A model generated the notes under the pieces. The model searched no databases. It saw only the letters and a program-made list of their open reading frames with translations, and was not told the DNA's origin. From Sulfurovum sp. XGS-02 (lineage in GTDB: Bacteria; Campylobacterota; Campylobacteria; Campylobacterales; Sulfurovaceae): DNA of 64,000 nucleotides. The position numbers were made by a program, and so were the translations under genes. The stretch lies in assembly GCF_023213175.1 (NCBI RefSeq), contig NZ_CP093312.1, forward strand, positions 1,550,001 to 1,614,000, given 5' to 3'. Shown piece by piece: positions 7,170-24,437 of this stretch (position 1 is its first letter; the number at the start of each line of letters is the position of its first letter).

Positions 7170-8498
7170 TTACAGTATATAGCGGGTTGCATCTTCATCT
7201 TCAACCACTTTGCTTATCTTCTCTTCTACCAATGCTTTATCCACATGGATAGTTTCACCCTTGTGTTCGTCGGCTGAGAAACTGATCTCTTCGAGGATCT
7301 TTTCCATTACTGTATGTAAACGTCTGGCACCTATATCTTCAGTCTTTTCATTGGCAAGCAGTGAATAGTGTGCAATGGCTCTCAGTGCTTCTTCCTCAAA
7401 GTTCAACGCTACACCTTCAACCTTCATCAATGCTATATACTGTTTGATAAGTGCATTTTTGGGTTCTGTCAAAATACGATATAAGGTCTCTTCATTTAAG
7501 CTGTTAAGCTCAACACGAAGAGGGAACCGTCCCTGGAGCTCCGGCATTAGGTCACTGGGTTTACTCACATGGAAGGCACCTGCAGCTATAAAGAGAATAT
7601 GGTCTGTATTGACCATACCTAGCTTCGTATTGACAGAGGAACCTTCTACAATAGGAAGTAGATCTCTTTGCACACCCTCTTTGCTAGGGTCTTGCCTGCT
7701 TTGTGAATTGGAAGCTACAGCGACTTTATCTATCTCGTCAAGAAATACGATACCGCCCTTCTCTACCTTTTCAAGTGCCAGAGATTTAAGATTTTCTTCA
7801 TCAAGAAGTTTTTCACTTGCCTCAGCTTCCAATATCTTCTTGGCATCTTTCACAGTAACTTCTTTTTCCGGACCTTTCTTACCCATACCTCCCAGAACTT
7901 TAACAATAGACTCTTGTACCTGGATCATTTGTGGAGGAAGTCCCTCTTCTGGCATGGCAGGCGTGTTCGGTACTTCTACTTTGATCTTGAGATAATCAAG
8001 TTCACCTTTGGCATACTTCTCCTGCATACGTGTAAAAGAGGCATCATACTCTGCTTTCTTCTGTTCACTTGCACCGGCTGGAAGCGGAGGAAGAAGTTTT
8101 TCTATGATCTTGTTTTCAATATAGTTTTCTATCTTCTCTCTGTTTTTTTCATTTTCACTCTCACGTACCAAAGTCAAAGAGGTTGCAGCCAGATCACGTA
8201 TCATCGACTCGACATCTCGTCCGACAAACCCGACTTCCGTATATTTACTGGCTTCTACTTTAATGAATGGCAGATTCATCATCTTGGCCAAACGTCTGGC
8301 GATCTCCGTTTTACCAACCCCTGTACTACCGATCATCAATATATTTTTCGGTGTCACATCCTGCTGCATCTCCGGACTGAGCTGCATACGTCTGTAACGG
8401 TTTCTAAGTGCTACGGCGATCGTCTTTTTCGCTTCATTCTGTCCTATGACATATTTATCCAGGTAAGTAACTATCTCTTTAGGTGTTAAGTTCTCCAC
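7170..8498 (-). CDS. hslU: HslU, ATPase subunit of the HslUV protease
   Basis: The 442-residue AAA+ unfoldase feeds substrates to HslV. The Walker A region is GSTGVGKTEIARRLAK at about residues 57-72, and Walker B is GIVFLDEIDKVA. The insertion (I) domain lies between them at about 110-245. The C-terminus DATRYIL matches the conserved tail that docks into HslV. The gene lies 9 bases after hslV in the same direction, so the two subunits are co-transcribed. Confidence 0.97.
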   Translation of the reverse strand: MENLTPKEIVTYLDKYVIGQNEAKKTIAVALRNRYRRMQLSPEMQQDVTPKNILMIGSTGVGKTEIARRLAKMMNLPFIKVEASKYTEVGFVGRDVESMIRDLAATSLTLVRESENEKNREKIENYIENKIIEKLLPPLPAGASEQKKAEYDASFTRMQEKYAKGELDYLKIKVEVPNTPAMPEEGLPPQMIQVQESIVKVLGGMGKKGPEKEVTVKDAKKILEAEASEKLLDEENLKSLALEKVEKGGIVFLDEIDKVAVASNSQSRQDPSKEGVQRDLLPIVEGSSVNTKLGMVNTDHILFIAAGAFHVSKPSDLMPELQGRFPLRVELNSLNEETLYRILTEPKNALIKQYIALMKVEGVALNFEEEALRAIAHYSLLANEKTEDIGARRLHTVMEKILEEISFSADEHKGETIHVDKALVEEKISKVVEDEDATRYIL

Positions 8499-8507
8499 TA
8501 CACTTCC

Positions 8508-9038
8508 TTACAGTTCTAATATTTTAATATTCTTGTTCGTATAGATACAAAGTTCACCGGCAACTTCAAGTGACTCTTGTACCAGTGTTCTTGGATCAAG
8601 GTCTGTATGTTTGTCCAAAGCACGTGCTGCGGAGATGGCATAGTTACCGCCGGATCCTATCGCTGCTATCTTCCCGTCTTCAGGCTCTACGACATCACCC
8701 GTCCCTGAAAGTATAAAGATATGCTCCTGGTTCAGTACGATCATCATCGCTTCCAGCTGACGCAGATGTTTGTCTTTTCTCCACATTTTGGAAAACCCTA
8801 TGACAGACTTGAAAAGATCACCTCTTTTTTCAGCCAATATGCCCTCGAACATATCAAAAAGGTTAAATGCATCTGCCGTACTTCCAGCAAATCCTGCCAA
8901 TATTTTTCCTTCATGCAATGTGCGTATCTTTGTGGCATTACCTTTGAGTACGGTATCCCCAAAGGTTACTTGGCCATCACCGCCTATCACTGCTTTGCCA
9001 TTACTCTTATAACCCAGTATCGTAGTTGCGTCAAACAT
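8508..9038 (-). CDS. hslV: HslV, peptidase subunit of the HslUV protease
   Basis: The 176-residue threonine peptidase has the proteasome-beta fold. The active N-terminal threonine is in [11 protein letters not shown], so a four-residue propeptide precedes the catalytic TT, as in Helicobacter homologues. Other conserved parts are [25 protein letters not shown] and the C-terminal [17 protein letters not shown]. It is encoded 2 bases after rplI and 9 before hslU, giving a tight cluster. Confidence 0.97.
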
Positions 9039-9040
9039 GA

Positions 9041-9484
9041 CTATACACCTACTACTTCTACTTTAAGTGTCGCATGAATCGCATGCCCAAGTTTGGCATC
9101 CACTTCATGCGTACCTGTTGACTTAAGTGCTTTCTTAAGATTAATATTTTTTTTGTCAAGTTCTATGTTGAGTTGTTCTTGTATGGCGTTTGATATATCA
9201 GCATTCCCAACTGAACCTTTGATACCGACAGGTGCCAATGGTTTTTCCACTTTAATGGTTGCCGCTTCAAGTGTTATTTTTTCAGCTTCAAGTCTGGCCA
9301 GTTCATCTCTTAGTTTTCTTGCCATCTCTTCTTGTTCGGCTTTCCAATTTTCTACAACCTCAGGTGTAGCCAACTTTGCCAAACCCTTTCCTATAAGGAA
9401 ATTCTGTCCATAGCCATCTTTTACTTCTTTAATTTCACCTGCTTTCCCAAGTGCTTTAACATCTTTGATCAATAATACTTTCAT
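9041..9484 (-). CDS. rplI: 50S ribosomal protein L9
   Basis: The 147-residue protein has the two-domain L9 form. The N-terminal signature is [20 protein letters not shown] followed by [11 protein letters not shown], then a long helix and a C-terminal rRNA-binding domain. It binds 23S rRNA near the L1 stalk. It is the first gene of the rplI-hslV-hslU group on the minus strand and is divergent from mlaA. The 162-base gap holds both promoters. Confidence 0.97.
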
Positions 9485-18297: not shown

Positions 18298-18639
18298 TTA
18301 GTAATCAAATCCATATTTCTTCAAAATGATCTCTAATACAGCCTTCTGATAGGCTCCGGTATGACGAAACACTTCTTTTCCAGAGGCGTCAAAAAATATC
18401 TGCGTAGGCATCTCTTTGAGTTTATAGATATCACGACTCACCAAACGCTCTTTTTGACCATCTATTGAATAGATCTGAAACTCCGGATGCACTTCTAATA
18501 CTTCAGCAAATACTTTGGACATCGCTAAACAGCTATAGCAGTGGGACATACCAAATGAGAATATGAGAGGCTTCCCATTACCTATCTTATCTTTGACATC
18601 GGCATATTTCATCACTGGCATTATATTTTCCGTAGGCAT
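18298..18639 (-). CDS. Cytoplasmic thioredoxin-like protein (CYSC active site)
   Basis: The 113-residue thioredoxin-fold protein has a redox pair Cys34/Cys37 in FSFGMSHCYSCLAMSK and a cis-proline in MPTQIFF. There is no signal peptide, so it should act in the cytoplasm as a reductase or thiol oxidoreductase. The Met start at 18639 has GGAGAAG just before it and a TATAAT box about 30 bases upstream. The 5' end and promoter of this gene lie in a sequence repeated next to pdxJ, showing that the two genes were once direct divergent neighbours. Confidence 0.82.
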   Translation of the reverse strand: MPTENIMPVMKYADVKDKIGNGKPLIFSFGMSHCYSCLAMSKVFAEVLEVHPEFQIYSIDGQKERLVSRDIYKLKEMPTQIFFDASGKEVFRHTGAYQKAVLEIILKKYGFDY

Positions 18640-18709
18640 CTTCTCTCCACATATTCTAAATATAAGCGATTATACAAATTCTATCTTAAGAACTTTTACT
18701 ATCATCAAA
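18630..18709. repeat. Copy A of a duplicated bidirectional promoter (thioredoxin side)
   Basis: These 80 bases match 23539-23618 at 72 of 80 positions without gaps. The copy spans the thioredoxin start codon and ribosome site (minus) and the former pdxJ promoter (plus). Here the thioredoxin -10 is intact (TATAAT on the minus strand, 18669-18674) while the pdxJ -10 has decayed to TATCAT (18700-18705). Confidence 0.9.
18669..18674 (-). promoter_or_regulatory. -10 box of the thioredoxin-like gene
   Basis: TATAAT on the minus strand lies 30 bases before the ATG at 18639. The matching site in copy B next to pdxJ reads GATAAT, as expected if only this copy still drives the thioredoxin gene. Confidence 0.6.
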
Positions 18710-18790
18710 TTGCCATTATTCATAAAGTGTACATATATTACGGGAGGGGGAGCATTGACCATATGGTGCTGCTGCAGAAAAGAAGGTCTC
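18710..18790 (+). pseudogene. Decayed leader and 5' end of pdxJ
   Basis: Downstream of copy A, the 12-mer CATTGACCATAT at 18753-18764 equals codons 6-9 of pdxJ at 23672-23683. It lies at nearly the same distance from the repeat (123 versus 133 bases). The next eight codons can still be aligned in frame with pdxJ (the NIDHIAVLREAR region), after which similarity fades. There is no start codon and the promoter is mutated, so this is a non-functional fragment. Confidence 0.6.
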
Positions 18791-18888
18791 CGATACCCTG
18801 GAGACAAGAGGGTAGTGGAGATAAAGAATAATATTCCTTACCTAATACCACATATGTTGATATCAGGATAGGGAGTGGGATATATAGA

Positions 18889-20244
18889 CTAAAAGTTATA
18901 AGATGCTATCACACGGAAGTGATTCATCTTCTTCTCCACTACTGCGCTGCTGTCATACTCACTGGTTCTGATAGCATTAAATACTTTTATCGTCCATGCT
19001 TTAGTCGGTTTGTAAGCCAAGATAATATCAGTCTCGGTCGCATCATTGCTCGCAACCAGATTCAACCCTGCATAGCCTGTTGTTTTAGACTTACCGTAAT
19101 TGGCATAGCTCGCCATAAGCTTTAGACCCTTCATGATCGTATAGTGTCCACCGACTTTGTATGCACTGACGTCTTGTCTATATGCATTACGAGAAAAAAG
19201 AGAACTCGTATACGCCGGATCCGTACCCCATGCATTTAAAAAACCGCTTTTGATCAATGTATTTCCGTCATTATCTTCATCATTCGACTTATTGTATGCT
19301 GCATACACCGACCATTTTTTATTGCCTATATTTGCTTTTACTCCCGTAAGGCTATAGTTCAGTGTTCCGGCCAGTTTATCACCGATCTCATCCTGTTGAA
19401 GATATTGGGCACTTAATGCAAGGTTTGTACCTTTCGCTACAGGGAATTTATAGTCAACATCTGCATAGAGCATATTCGCAATATCCCATGCATAGTAATC
19501 CCATAGAGATACTTTTAAACCTTTAATTCCTGTATATGTTGCTCCGGCTACCGTCATACCATTTGTGTCTTCATTAACCCCGGCACCTTCTGCAAGATCG
19601 TGAAATTCTGCTTGGGCTATTCCTGTAGCACTCTGTGTTTCCATTGGTCTGGCTACACCGGCGGTTTTAGTCTTCTCACCAATCAATCCCCAATCAGTTG
19701 CTGCTCTGGAACCATAAGACATTCTGCTAATATAACCAAGCTCGAATGAAAAACCATTAACCTTTTCGGCACCTAACATATAGGCTTCATAAAAGTTTGG
19801 CATCAAAGACCATTTGATCTGTGTCAGCGGTGTATTTAAAATCTGACGTCCGCCTTTAAATCGGAACTTATCATTTTTATACTCCAGATATACTTCACCA
19901 AGCAGCGACTTTTCATCACCTTCCACATTTGTAAACATTCCGAGTGCATTTTTCTTATCGCCGTCCCAGTCTGTAAGACCGGTATCGCCATTTACATAAA
20001 AGGCAGCACCAAACTTGAGTCCGTCTAGAACTTCGGGAGTTACATATTTAAGCGTACCTAAATAACCGCTACCATTATTTGGAGCCCATCCATTATCTTT
20101 ATCACTGATGATGTACATCGCTTTTAACTGTCCTGAAATGACTCCACCACTAAGTAATGCTGTTTCTTTCACTTTGGGTGCATCGGCCGCTTGAAGAATC
20201 ATTGTTCCCGCAAGTACCACTACTGAGATAGCTGTTTTTTTCAT
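18889..20244 (-). CDS. OprD-like outer-membrane porin
   Basis: The start is set at the ATG at 20244, preceded by AAAGGAA, which gives the signal peptide MKKTAISVVVLAGTMILQAA. A frame from 20298 would add 18 residues ahead of it. The mature protein, about 430 residues, is rich in alternating beta strands and aromatic residues and ends in Phe (ASYNF), the usual beta-barrel insertion signal. Segments such as FKGGRQILNTPLTQI and LMPNFYEAYML are typical of Campylobacterota OprD-family porins. It probably passes small anions or peptides. It is divergent from a rhodanese gene with a matching promoter and lies beside a two-component system. Confidence 0.87.
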   Translation of the reverse strand: MKKTAISVVVLAGTMILQAADAPKVKETALLSGGVISGQLKAMYIISDKDNGWAPNNGSGYLGTLKYVTPEVLDGLKFGAAFYVNGDTGLTDWDGDKKNALGMFTNVEGDEKSLLGEVYLEYKNDKFRFKGGRQILNTPLTQIKWSLMPNFYEAYMLGAEKVNGFSFELGYISRMSYGSRAATDWGLIGEKTKTAGVARPMETQSATGIAQAEFHDLAEGAGVNEDTNGMTVAGATYTGIKGLKVSLWDYYAWDIANMLYADVDYKFPVAKGTNLALSAQYLQQDEIGDKLAGTLNYSLTGVKANIGNKKWSVYAAYNKSNDEDNDGNTLIKSGFLNAWGTDPAYTSSLFSRNAYRQDVSAYKVGGHYTIMKGLKLMASYANYGKSKTTGYAGLNLVASNDATETDIILAYKPTKAWTIKVFNAIRTSEYDSSAVVEKKMNHFRVIASYNF

Positions 20245-20314
20245 TTTTATTCCTTTTTCCATATTTTGAATGGGACAATGATGACAGACTAATGTCAACT
20301 CTATATTAGTCCTT

Positions 20315-20332
20315 TGTTAATGGAGTGTTAAT
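20315..20332 (-). promoter_or_regulatory. PhoB-type direct repeat upstream of the porin
   Basis: On the minus strand ATTAACA occurs twice, separated by CTCC, giving an 11-bp period as in OmpR/PhoB-class binding sites. The same layout appears upstream of the divergent rhodanese gene, at nearly equal distance from its start. The response regulator at 22594-23283 is the obvious candidate to bind. Confidence 0.6.
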
Positions 20333-20452
20333 AAAAGTCCAAATGATGAGATAGATAAATATTTACTTACATAATTTGGTCATGGAGATGATAGTGTATT
20401 GAAGAAGTGCTATATTCCTAAAGGATAGACATTTTTCGTTATATGGCTTCTT

Positions 20453-20470
20453 ATTAATAGTACGTTAACA
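20453..20470 (+). promoter_or_regulatory. PhoB-type direct repeat upstream of the rhodanese gene
   Basis: ATTAATA and GTTAACA are separated by GTAC, again an 11-bp period. The 58 bases starting at 20450 match the porin promoter (minus strand, 20335 down to 20278) at 42 positions without gaps, which extends the similarity well beyond the repeat. Confidence 0.6.
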
Positions 20471-20537
20471 AAAGACTAACATGTAGTTCATATATATTTG
20501 TCATTATGCTAAGGTAAAAAAATAAAAGGATAAAGAA

Positions 20538-21362
20538 ATGAAAAAAATAGTTGTTTTCCTGATCGCCGGGATGTCAATATTGTTCGGAAGTACTAACTTT
20601 CCAATAGTTACACACGAAGAAGTTTTAGAACTTCAGAAACAAAACAATACATTGCTGATAGATGCCAGACCTCCAAAACTTTACAAGCTGGGTACTATAA
20701 TGGGTGCCATGAATATAAACATGAGAGATATGAAAGTTTACGAAAATAAACTTGGGCTTCTTCCAAATGACAAATCTGCAAAGATAGTCTCTTTTTGTAA
20801 CGGTCCAAAATGCAAGCTCTCACACAAGCTGGCCAAAAGTCTGAAAATAGCAGGTTATACTAATGTAGTCATATACCAGGGTGGATATCCGGAGTGGAGA
20901 AAGAAGAAATTAGAAGCCATGGGTATGCTAAGAGAGTGTAAAAATCAATCCGGGGAGTATCAACCATCACAGGAGAACAAAATAGATATTAACGGTATAA
21001 CACTCTATAAAGGCGCTGAGACAGGTATGGTCGATCAGAGATGGTTTGCGAAGAAACTCAATACAAATAGTAAACCTGAAGGTATTACCTTGGTAGATGT
21101 AAGATCTGAAAAGGACTTTAATGCAGGCCACTATGAAGGGGCTATCAATATTCCTTACAATGTAGACAAAGGCACACTGGATGCAACGAAACTTCCGAAA
21201 TCAAAAGCGATCGTGATCTATTGCCATACCGGAATGATGTCGGTTGGAGCTTGGCAGTCACTGCAAAAGAATAAAGTTTATATGTCAAATATTTTCTATT
21301 TGGATGCAAATTTTGACTGTACAAAAGGCAAGTGTTCCGTAGAACCGAACGAGGATCTATAA
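20538..21362 (+). CDS. Periplasmic protein with two rhodanese domains
   Basis: The 274-residue protein has a signal peptide (MKKIVVFLIAGMSILFGS). Rhodanese domain 1 (about 22-125) has Cys87 in SFCNGPKCK and DARPPKLY. Domain 2 (about 158-258) has Cys229 in IYCHTGMMS and DVRSEKDFNAGHYEGAINIP. Both active-site cysteines are present, so both domains could carry persulfide, although the native donor is unknown. The C-terminal FDCTKGKCSVEP adds a further Cys pair. AAAGGA precedes the ATG. Its promoter mirrors that of the divergent porin, suggesting joint control and a role in periplasmic sulfur handling. Confidence 0.85.
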   Translation: MKKIVVFLIAGMSILFGSTNFPIVTHEEVLELQKQNNTLLIDARPPKLYKLGTIMGAMNINMRDMKVYENKLGLLPNDKSAKIVSFCNGPKCKLSHKLAKSLKIAGYTNVVIYQGGYPEWRKKKLEAMGMLRECKNQSGEYQPSQENKIDINGITLYKGAETGMVDQRWFAKKLNTNSKPEGITLVDVRSEKDFNAGHYEGAINIPYNVDKGTLDATKLPKSKAIVIYCHTGMMSVGAWQSLQKNKVYMSNIFYLDANFDCTKGKCSVEPNEDL

Positions 21363-21386
21363 TGTCAGCAAAAATGCTGATATTAT
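21359..21386. terminator. Hairpin between the convergent rhodanese and sensor kinase genes
   Basis: A 12-bp stem (ATAATGTCAGCA against TGCTGATATTAT, one G-T pair) with an AAAA loop overlaps the stop codons of both convergent genes. It probably works as a bidirectional terminator. No T-run follows directly, so rho-independent termination is likely but not certain. Confidence 0.5.
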
Positions 21387-22597
21387 AGGCCTATCATAAA
21401 ACAGTTATACCCATTTTCATATCTGTATGAAAGGGTGTAACCATGCTCTTTAAGTATTTCATAGACGATATATAATCCCAAGCCAAAACTCTCCGAGGAT
21501 TTAACTTCACCTTTTGTAAAGGGTTGAATGTAATATTCTAGCTTTTCATCTATTTTGGCACCAAGTGAATAAAAACCGATTCCATTCGCATTGCATTCAA
21601 TGTAAAAATCATTCTCTTTTGCATATTTAAGACCATTGTCAATCAGGTTTTTAAATACGATTGTAAAGAGTTCAAAATTGACTTCTAATTTTCTTTCAGA
21701 AAAATTATTTTTAATAGAATTAGGTTCTAAAAACAGCATATCGGTAGCTTGATCTAAAATGTTCGTAAGCGAATAAGGCTTTTTTTCCAGTTTATGTTCA
21801 CTCGCTGTAATTTTTTCAATCTGAACAAATTCTTTTAATAGTAACTCAAGCCGTATAAACACTTCATTCAAGATATCCTTAGATTTGGACTCCTCTATAA
21901 ATTCCAGTGCCAGTTTTCCTCTTGTGATAGGTGTTTTACATTCATGTGTAATGTTCCTCAAAAAAATCATTCTTGCTTTTAAAAGATACCTTATTTTTTT
22001 AGCAGACTTATTAAATTCATTTGATACTTCAGCAATTTCATCATTACGGGTTGACGAGAAATCTATATCTATATTCCCCTCTCCAAAACTGCGTATTTGT
22101 TTTTGTAGATGTTTCAATGGTATAAGACTAATTGCGATAGAGAAAAAGAGAAGTAACATAATTGCAATAAAAGCAAAATATAACCACCAAACATAGTTAA
22201 CATTTATAGACTGTGTATCCATGTCTTTTAATAATATATTTCCAACTTGAGGTGGAACTACGACATATCTGTATAAACCTTTTTCATATAGATGAAAGTC
22301 TCCCTGCGCACAGGAGACAGTATCAAATTTTTCAAGTTTTTGAATCTCATCATAGAGCACATTATCATCAACCACATACATATTGTCTCTTTTTAGCACT
22401 TCAATGAGTTCTTCATAACTATTTTTACCAATTTTCCATCTCATAATAGACATAGCTACATGATGATAGTGTACTTTGAGTCTCTCTTTTTCATTTGTAA
22501 ATTCATATTGGTACATCACTTTAAAAAGAGCAGTAGTAGCCACTAAAGCTAAAAAGAAAAATAACACAATTCGTAATAATATTGCATGTCTATTCAT
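21383..22597 (-). CDS. Sensor histidine kinase, ArsS-like
   Basis: The 404-residue membrane kinase has helices at about residues 8-28 and 136-160 flanking a periplasmic sensor of about 105 residues. A HAMP-like linker follows, then the H-box ITHECKTPITRGKLALEF, the N-box FKNLIDNGLKYAKEN and the G-box ESFGLGLYIVYEIL. The compact ATPase domain resembles the ArsS/acid-response kinases of Campylobacterota. Its start overlaps the response regulator stop by 4 bases. With the adjacent porin and rhodanese it probably forms a sensing and response unit. The signal is unknown. Confidence 0.86.
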   Translation of the reverse strand: MNRHAILLRIVLFFFLALVATTALFKVMYQYEFTNEKERLKVHYHHVAMSIMRWKIGKNSYEELIEVLKRDNMYVVDDNVLYDEIQKLEKFDTVSCAQGDFHLYEKGLYRYVVVPPQVGNILLKDMDTQSINVNYVWWLYFAFIAIMLLLFFSIAISLIPLKHLQKQIRSFGEGNIDIDFSSTRNDEIAEVSNEFNKSAKKIRYLLKARMIFLRNITHECKTPITRGKLALEFIEESKSKDILNEVFIRLELLLKEFVQIEKITASEHKLEKKPYSLTNILDQATDMLFLEPNSIKNNFSERKLEVNFELFTIVFKNLIDNGLKYAKENDFYIECNANGIGFYSLGAKIDEKLEYYIQPFTKGEVKSSESFGLGLYIVYEILKEHGYTLSYRYENGYNCFMIGL

Positions 22598-23283
22598 CGT
22601 AGTATCATTCTATATCCAATACCCCGTACGGACTCAAAGTATTTTGGTTTTCTTGGATCGTCATTTAGTTTTGCGCGTAGTCGGCTTATAATAACATCTA
22701 TACTTCTATCTCCGCTGCTCCAGTTCATCCCATCAACATAATCTAAAATATCTTCACGAGAAAATACAATACCTCTCTTTTGTAAAAAAAGCTTTAATAC
22801 ACCAAACTCCGCTACAGTTAAATCTAATGCATCACCTTTAAAATAAATCTTCATAGTTTGTTTGTCACATTTAAACTCTTTATCTTCAAAAATATCATCT
22901 GTATGAAGTGTATTCTCAACTCTTCTGAGTTGCACTTGTATTCTTGCGATCAATTCACGGGTGTCAAATGGTTTTGGTAAGTAGTCATCTGCACCTTTCT
23001 CCAATCCTAGTACTTTATCACTGACATTGTCACGAGCAGACATAATGATAATAGGAATAGAGTATTTTTTTCGGATACGTTCGCAAAGAATCAACCCATC
23101 CATCTTTGGTAATGATAGATCAAGTAATATCAGTTTATAGGATTTATCTTCAAGCCTCATTAATACTTTTAACGGATCATGTAAAATATCAACCGTATAG
23201 TCACTGCTGATTAGATAGTCAGCGATAAGGTCTGATAAATCTATATCATCCTCTACTATCAATATGTCTGTCTTTTCTCTCAT
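22594..23283 (-). CDS. OmpR-family response regulator
   Basis: The 229-residue regulator has a receiver domain with acidic pocket E11-D12-D13, phosphoacceptor Asp55 (ILLDLSLPKMDG) and the conserved KPF lysine. A winged-helix DNA-binding domain follows (about 130-229), ending in RLRAKLNDDPRKPKYFESVRGIGYRM. It is encoded before and overlapping its kinase. Two PhoB-type repeats upstream of the porin and rhodanese are likely targets. Its own upstream region holds two palindromes that do not match those repeats. Confidence 0.9.
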   Translation of the reverse strand: MREKTDILIVEDDIDLSDLIADYLISSDYTVDILHDPLKVLMRLEDKSYKLILLDLSLPKMDGLILCERIRKKYSIPIIIMSARDNVSDKVLGLEKGADDYLPKPFDTRELIARIQVQLRRVENTLHTDDIFEDKEFKCDKQTMKIYFKGDALDLTVAEFGVLKLFLQKRGIVFSREDILDYVDGMNWSSGDRSIDVIISRLRAKLNDDPRKPKYFESVRGIGYRMILR

Positions 23284-23322
23284 CAGTAAATCTTTAATTT
23301 TTCTTCTTTTACTTTTTCTTTT

Positions 23323-23353
23323 CTATGAGACGGTATACCGTAGTTACTCATAG
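23323..23353. promoter_or_regulatory. Nested palindrome upstream of the response regulator
   Basis: The perfect 12-bp palindrome ACGGTATACCGT (23330-23341) lies inside a wider inverted repeat, CTATGAG (23323-23329) and CTCATAG (23347-23353), followed on the plus strand by TTTTTT. It may be an operator for the regulator gene, or a terminator left from a lost plus-strand gene. Confidence 0.4.
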
Positions 23354-23394
23354 TTTTTTCTACCCTTTCCTCTAACACCGTAATGATCATGACC

Positions 23395-23420
23395 ATATTG
23401 AATGATTATTCATTCAATAT
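23395..23420. promoter_or_regulatory. 11-bp perfect inverted repeat with a 4-base loop
   Basis: ATATTGAATGA at 23395-23405 is followed by TTAT and its exact complement TCATTCAATAT at 23410-23420. It looks like a binding site for a dimeric repressor, or a weak hairpin. No matching copy was noticed elsewhere in the window. Confidence 0.4.
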
Positions 23421-23538
23421 ATAACATACTTAACCTTAAACAAAGCAAAATGGATTCAAATAATACCCATCACTTCTTTTTTACATGCTCAGTATGCCGA
23501 AATAATTTTTCTTCAAGAACAAGCAGTAAAAGATACAT

Positions 23539-23618
23539 CCGCAGGTATCTTCTCTCCTCATATTCCAAATATAAGCGATTATCCAAATTCTATCTTAAAA
23601 ACTTTTGCTATAATCAAA
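23539..23618. repeat. Copy B of the duplicated bidirectional promoter (pdxJ side)
   Basis: These 80 bases match 18630-18709 at 72 positions. This copy keeps the pdxJ -10 (TATAAT, 23609-23614). The thioredoxin -10 reads GATAAT and the thioredoxin start codon reads ATA, so the leftward gene has been lost here. Confidence 0.9.
23609..23614 (+). promoter_or_regulatory. -10 box of the pdxJ-pdxA operon
   Basis: TATAAT lies 41 bases before the pdxJ ATG, within the duplicated block. The equivalent site in copy A is mutated. No distinct -35 is seen. Confidence 0.6.
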
Positions 23619-23654
23619 CTCATATTACACAATATTACATAAGGAAATTCAACC

Positions 23655-24437
23655 ATGTTATTGGGCGTAAACATTGACCATATTGCAGTACTAAGAGAAG
23701 CACGAAAAGTAGCAGATCCTGATCCGCTTGATGCACTAAGCATCTGTAAACGTGCTGGAGCAGACCAGATCACGATCCATCTTCGTGAAGACCGGCGCCA
23801 TATGCAAGATATGGATGCCAAAAATATTATAGAGCTTTCTGCACTGCCTGTAAACCTCGAATGTGCCATCTCTCCTGAAATGATAGATATCGCCTGTGAG
23901 CTAAAACCGCATCGTGTCACGCTTGTGCCTGAAAAGAGAGAAGAGGTCACTACAGAAGGCGGTCTTGCAGTCACAGGAGAACAACCCAAACTCAAAGAGG
24001 CTATCCGAAGACTGCACAAAGAAGAGATAGAGATCTCACTTTTCATAGACCCTACCCTGGATGCGGTCAATGCATCGCTTGAGCTAGGTGTCGAGTGGAT
24101 AGAGTTTCATACGGGGAAATATGCCAACATCTATGCGATGCTCTATACAAACCTCTCGAAAACGCACCACAGCATCCCTGAACTTGAACTCCCGCGAAAA
24201 GTACTCAAAAAGATGCTTAAAGATGAACTCTGCAACTTGCGTCTGCTCTCCTGTGATGCTATGGAGCTGGGATTGCGTGTGGCAGCAGGACATGGCCTTA
24301 ATATGCAAAATGTCAAAGAGATCGCCGAGATAGAAACCATAGAAGAGCTCAACATCGGACAAAGCATTATCGCCCGTTCTGTCTATACCGGGCTTGAACA
24401 GGCTATCATAGATATGAAATCTATGTTGATAAGATAA
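23655..24437 (+). CDS. pdxJ: Pyridoxine 5'-phosphate synthase PdxJ
   Basis: The 260-residue TIM-barrel enzyme condenses 3-amino-1-hydroxyacetone phosphate with deoxyxylulose 5-phosphate in the DXP-dependent vitamin B6 pathway. Family segments are LGVNIDHIAVLREAR, DPDPLDA, ITIHLREDRRHMQD and HGLNMQNVKEIAEI. AAGGAAA precedes the ATG at 23655. pdxA follows one base after the stop, so the two act together. The 5' end also exists as a decayed fragment at 18753-18790. Confidence 0.97.
   Translation: MLLGVNIDHIAVLREARKVADPDPLDALSICKRAGADQITIHLREDRRHMQDMDAKNIIELSALPVNLECAISPEMIDIACELKPHRVTLVPEKREEVTTEGGLAVTGEQPKLKEAIRRLHKEEIEISLFIDPTLDAVNASLELGVEWIEFHTGKYANIYAMLYTNLSKTHHSIPELELPRKVLKKMLKDELCNLRLLSCDAMELGLRVAAGHGLNMQNVKEIAEIETIEELNIGQSIIARSVYTGLEQAIIDMKSMLIR

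Follow-up and report, generated by a model that had tools for sequence, protein, structure and literature searches.

The window analyzed here is a 64,000-nucleotide stretch of contig NZ_CP093312.1 of Sulfurovum sp. XGS-02. In it, a thioredoxin-like gene (trx) and pdxJ point away from each other across a block of four genes. Pfam assignments agree with a preliminary description, made from the letters alone, that this block consists of a porin, a rhodanese and a two-component system; PdxA was also confirmed by Pfam at the locus. The kinase of the two-component system scored 405.3 bits against the NCBIfam ArsS model NF038389, for which the cut-off is 250. Each side of the block carries one copy of the divergent trx/pdxJ promoter, referred to below as LEFT and RIGHT, together with remnants of genes. 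The features are collected in Table 1.

Table 1. Features at the trx-pdxJ locus, with positions counted from the first nucleotide of the window.
Feature	Position	Strand	Remarks
trx, thioredoxin-like, intact but mosaic	18298-18639	-	Pfam Thioredoxin_2
11-bp direct repeat AGATGCCTACG, internal trx copy	18403-18413	-	
11-bp direct repeat AGATGCCTACG, trx start-codon copy	18631-18641	-	
LEFT copy of the trx/pdxJ divergent promoter	18629-18709	none	serves trx
LEFT trx -10, intact TATAAT	18669-18674	-	A at 18674 kept in 16/16 genomes
LEFT pdxJ extended -10, broken	18697-18705	+	TACTATCAT; genus form TGCTATAAT
Decayed pdxJ leader and 5' end, short	18710 to ~18770	+	12-mer CATTGACCATAT at conserved spacing
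Terminator-like hairpin of porin	18786-18805	-	
OprD-family porin	18889-20256	-	PF03573; 82% to G410 of another family
Triple operator TTAACA-n5-TTAACA-n5-CTAATA	20304-20331	-	11-bp spacing; upstream of porin
Same triple TTAACA operator	20454-20481	+	upstream of rhodanese gene
Rhodanese, two-domain, sulfurtransferase-like	20538-21362	+	PF00581 twice; signal-like N terminus
Sensor histidine kinase, ArsS family	21383-22597	-	HAMP/HisKA/HATPase; 76% to G410
OmpR-type response regulator	22594-23283	-	PF00072 and PF00486; 85% to G410
Decayed 3' end of a second trx	23437-23548	-	joined to start region at 11-bp repeat
RIGHT copy of the trx/pdxJ divergent promoter	23538-23618	none	serves pdxJ; foreign-type trx-side half
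RIGHT trx -10, broken GATAAT	23578-23583	-	
RIGHT pdxJ -10, intact TATAAT	23609-23614	+	TG upstream
pdxJ	23655-24437	+	native to G076 clade, 94-97% amino acid identity; PdxJ by Pfam

In most genomes of the genus in which trx and pdxJ lie on one contig, the two genes are direct divergent neighbours. The preliminary description had proposed a search for relatives with trx and pdxJ adjacent and a single promoter copy between them, and the four closest genomes (G076, G075, G029 and G028; the native clade below) have exactly this arrangement. Their gene order is argG, a small gene, trx, the promoter core, pdxJ and pdxA, without the block. The two segments flanking the block are copies of the promoter shared by trx and pdxJ.

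Direct reading of positions 18630-18709 against 23539-23618 gave 72 of 80 positions alike, the same count as first reported, and a repeat search gave 87% identity over 90 nt (18629-18718 against 23538-23627). When the genome itself was searched with the 80-mer, two places were returned, the second copy with an E-value of 1.4e-25. There was no third copy in this genome, the next match being 25 nt long and at chance level; the 80-mer is thus no dispersed repeat, a finding that would have counted against the preliminary description. The -10 elements and the change of ATG to ATA had likewise been read correctly. The pdxJ -10 of LEFT is TATCAT (18700-18705), and its extended -10 has changed from G to A at 18698 and from A to C at 18703, two sites invariant in 16/16 genomes; upstream of the extended -10, A has changed to G at 18690. 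In RIGHT, the ATG of trx is replaced by ATA (23546-23548). In a comparison with 16 same-genus genomes that have an alignable core, LEFT and RIGHT were found to differ at four core positions, every one of which is invariant across 16/16 genomes. Three of these invariant sites were lost in LEFT (18690, 18698 and 18703) and one in RIGHT (23583, in the trx -10). A rough hand estimate, made on these few differences, puts the chance of the four changes falling on the unneeded sides at ~0.02. Each copy has broken promoter sites that its own neighbour does not need. Of the original statement that each copy keeps only the promoter of its neighbour, the reciprocal loss at genus-invariant sites stands, and the accompanying loss of promoter function is what these substitutions suggest.

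The trx gene is itself a mosaic. Its 3' part (18298 to ~18550, codons 31-113) is 88-94% identical to the native clade. Its 5' part (~18551-18639, codons 1-30) is just 77% identical to G014, the nearest sampled match, 73% to G038, 71% to G005 and 60-62% to the native clade. In AU tests the native clade was rejected for codons 1-30 with p = 0.00175, a somewhat flattering value given that the groups and the cut were picked after the identity profile had been viewed; for codons 31-113 it was not rejected (p = 0.467). Informative sites in trx change lineage near 18562 (Fisher p = 4.7e-5, the groups and the cut again being chosen post hoc). The trx-side half of RIGHT is of the same foreign type as that of LEFT, and from ~23617 onward RIGHT is 84-88% identical to the native clade versus 57-70% to others. 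These comparisons indicate that the first 30 codons of trx, and the promoter on the trx side, came from another lineage of the same genus, one resembling G014, G038 and G005. Because the 5' part of trx is foreign and RIGHT turns native at ~23617, the foreign stretch would run from ~18550 to ~23600 with both ends in conserved homologous sequence; the breakpoints between foreign and native sequence fall within the homologous flanks, near 18550 on the left and between 23589 and ~23618 on the right.

The preliminary description had spoken of a duplicated promoter. The copies are real, and what was duplicated is more than a promoter, with a relic of the 3' end of trx on the right and a trace of the 5' end of pdxJ on the left. 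The trx relic is the second-best match in the window to a profile of the relatives' trx genes (nhmmer, E = 1.5e-4, 23550-23458, minus strand), and 0 of 1000 dinucleotide shuffles aligned as well. Since it meets the trx start at AGATGCCTACG, which is present twice in the intact trx, a simple reading is that it was made by a deletion between these repeats, by which ~228 bp of trx would have been removed. No trx-downstream DNA was found to the left of the relic, and its informative sites split 2 versus 2 between lineages. It is ~40% divergent from all trx genes compared, against a difference of 10% between the 80-mers, so that one simultaneous duplication fits poorly unless one assumes a conversion tract dating from integration, or constraint acting on the promoter, either of which would account for the gap. 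As for the edges of the repeat, RIGHT adjoins the trx relic on its left, where the deletion between the 11-bp repeats would have set the limit, and on its right it ends just where native sequence resumes at pdxJ.

The evidence for the pdxJ trace is weaker than that for the trx relic, because a pdxJ profile found no match over the left spacer (nhmmer). When the trace was aligned with the four closest relatives, 0-11 of 1000 dinucleotide shuffles did as well, a figure that applies to collinear alignment only. A similarity to pdxJ past ~18778 was discarded; the DNA there matches G410 downstream of the G410 porin.

The G410-like DNA starts at 18778, and the imported cassette therefore begins about there. 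G410 belongs to another family (f16, genus g24), and its DNA is 77% identical to that of the window over 18778-20335 and 21397-23294. The closest relative of the rhodanese, at 58-59%, is in G394, also of genus g24. Within the genus, no close homologue was found of the rhodanese (best 42%, over part) or of the kinase (best 40%), nor was one of the porin found among those genomes of the order sample that belong to the genus; a single-protein scan with the rhodanese across the named genome collection brought up distant matches only. By these similarities the block was acquired from another family, from a g24-type genome and not from G410 itself, because in G410 a cytochrome takes the place of the rhodanese, and the rhodanese is nearest to G394. 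The slot filled by this cytochrome in G410 and G318 is that of the rhodanese here, which lies on the other strand. Between porin and kinase, the multihaem cytochrome occupies 7241-8386 of L163 (G410) and 7250-8380 of L164 (G318).

The triple TTAACA operator has two perfect matches in the genome, those ahead of the porin and the rhodanese, and a reversed control has 0. Comparable TTAACA sites lie ahead of the porin and the cytochrome in G410 and G318. The cassette is probably a small regulon, in which the ArsS-type kinase and the OmpR-type regulator would control the porin and the rhodanese via these operators. An ArsS-model kinase with an adjacent OmpR-type partner recalls the ArsRS-type two-component systems of Campylobacterota; unlike those, the pair here is linked with porin and rhodanese genes that are preceded by a triple TTAACA operator. 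With one mismatch allowed, the operator has three more copies in the genome, at L177, L178 and L179 (G000:C1 488429, 622175 and 1984386). The promoter region of the rhodanese (20401-20540) resembles an inverted form of that of the porin (20257-20410), operator included. Upstream of the response regulator lies an inverted repeat, ATTGAATGA-TTAT-TCATTCAAT (23398-23421), a possible control site.

To an import with a same-genus flank, two crossovers, reciprocal loss and a cassette regulon, taken together, we assign a probability of about 70%. On this reading, the porin/rhodanese/two-component cassette, of other-family origin, would have reached the trx-pdxJ junction inside a longer stretch of DNA that ended in same-genus trx and promoter sequence. 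In homologous recombination the strands would have crossed over once within trx, near 18550, and once in the core of the divergent promoter, at ~23590-23618, so that a copy of the junction remained on either side. The right trx would later have been lost by deletion between the 11-bp repeats and then by decay, the left pdxJ would also have disappeared, and each promoter copy would have retained the -10 needed by its surviving neighbour. We infer this order of events from the present state of the locus, and the junction may have been duplicated at integration, preformed, or duplicated after an earlier replacement.

A history in two steps, in which allelic replacement first brought in a foreign 5' end of trx together with half of the promoter, and the junction was later duplicated in place as the cassette was inserted, would also make both copies the same mosaic junction, 90% identical, and would leave room for relics of native type. 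It calls, however, for two independent recombinations at one 150-bp spot, and the right edge of the repeat is the very point at which foreign sequence gives way to native; we regard it as unlikely, if worth keeping in mind. The preliminary description had favoured a duplication in place of the lineage's own promoter upon insertion, followed by a split of function. Its ancestral neighbours, its two copies and its recombination all survive, and the empty site of close relatives, the 90% identity of the copies and their reciprocal changes are what it would lead one to expect. The simple duplication of an own promoter is nevertheless contradicted by the first 30 codons of trx and by the promoter half on the trx side, which lie outside the native clade: both copies carry this foreign same-genus half, and trx is mosaic near 18550. 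We judge it very improbable. Still less credible is an old insertion in a common ancestor with loss of the block from the four relatives; recombination between direct repeats makes such a loss easy and the trx relic is strongly decayed, but the junction of the relatives differs in sequence type from both copies, and searches of the genus yielded no close homologue of the cassette. Transposon target duplications are short, and a mobile element, whether a transposon or an integrase island, that duplicated its target, despite the direct repeats that flank the block, can be dismissed as barely conceivable, since 80-bp imperfect repeats edged by gene relics do not fit it and Pfam placed the four block genes in porin, rhodanese, kinase and regulator families, with no transposase or integrase among them.

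The preferred import with two crossovers shares features with two known modes of recombination. As in Campbell-type single-crossover integration with a conversion tract, foreign DNA lies between direct repeats of a recombined homologous region, and duplicate genes are left free to decay, here as the trx relic on the right and the weaker pdxJ trace on the left. Unlike that model, each outer junction has its own switch between foreign and native sequence, the left one within trx and the right one within the promoter core, which calls for either a second crossover or a conversion tract. The model also includes a circular donor; no donor arrangement was found in the genomes searched. Double-crossover replacement, as in natural transformation, resembles the locus in that crossovers in conserved flanks bound the foreign stretch and a mosaic gene results. 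It differs in requiring a donor with the junction already duplicated, and none was present among the 78 genomes searched.

The locus is a compact example of foreign genes entering by way of conserved flanking genes, an event of a known and ordinary kind. The sequence lets one read the points of recombination, the gene relics and the way in which a single two-way promoter became two that each work in one direction. Should the unneeded half prove to be silenced as a rule, this would suggest selection against stray transcription; at stake here would be transcription from the left pdxJ promoter antisense into the porin, and from the right trx promoter into the regulator genes. A literature search found no published account of a trx-pdxJ cassette locus. 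That the trx/pdxJ promoter has served repeatedly as a point of entry within the genus, where cassettes bearing their own copy recombine in and neither gene is harmed because each neighbour keeps a promoter, is a doubtful proposition. No second promoter copy was seen at the filled junctions of G012, G045 and G065. The first two (L141 and L142) hold a 17-kb cluster between trx and pdxJ, to which trx is nearly joined and which, by ORF reading, may be aryl polyene-like. In G065 (L140), ~2 kb lies between trx and pdxJ (7190-9217), with ORFs that read as transposase-like.
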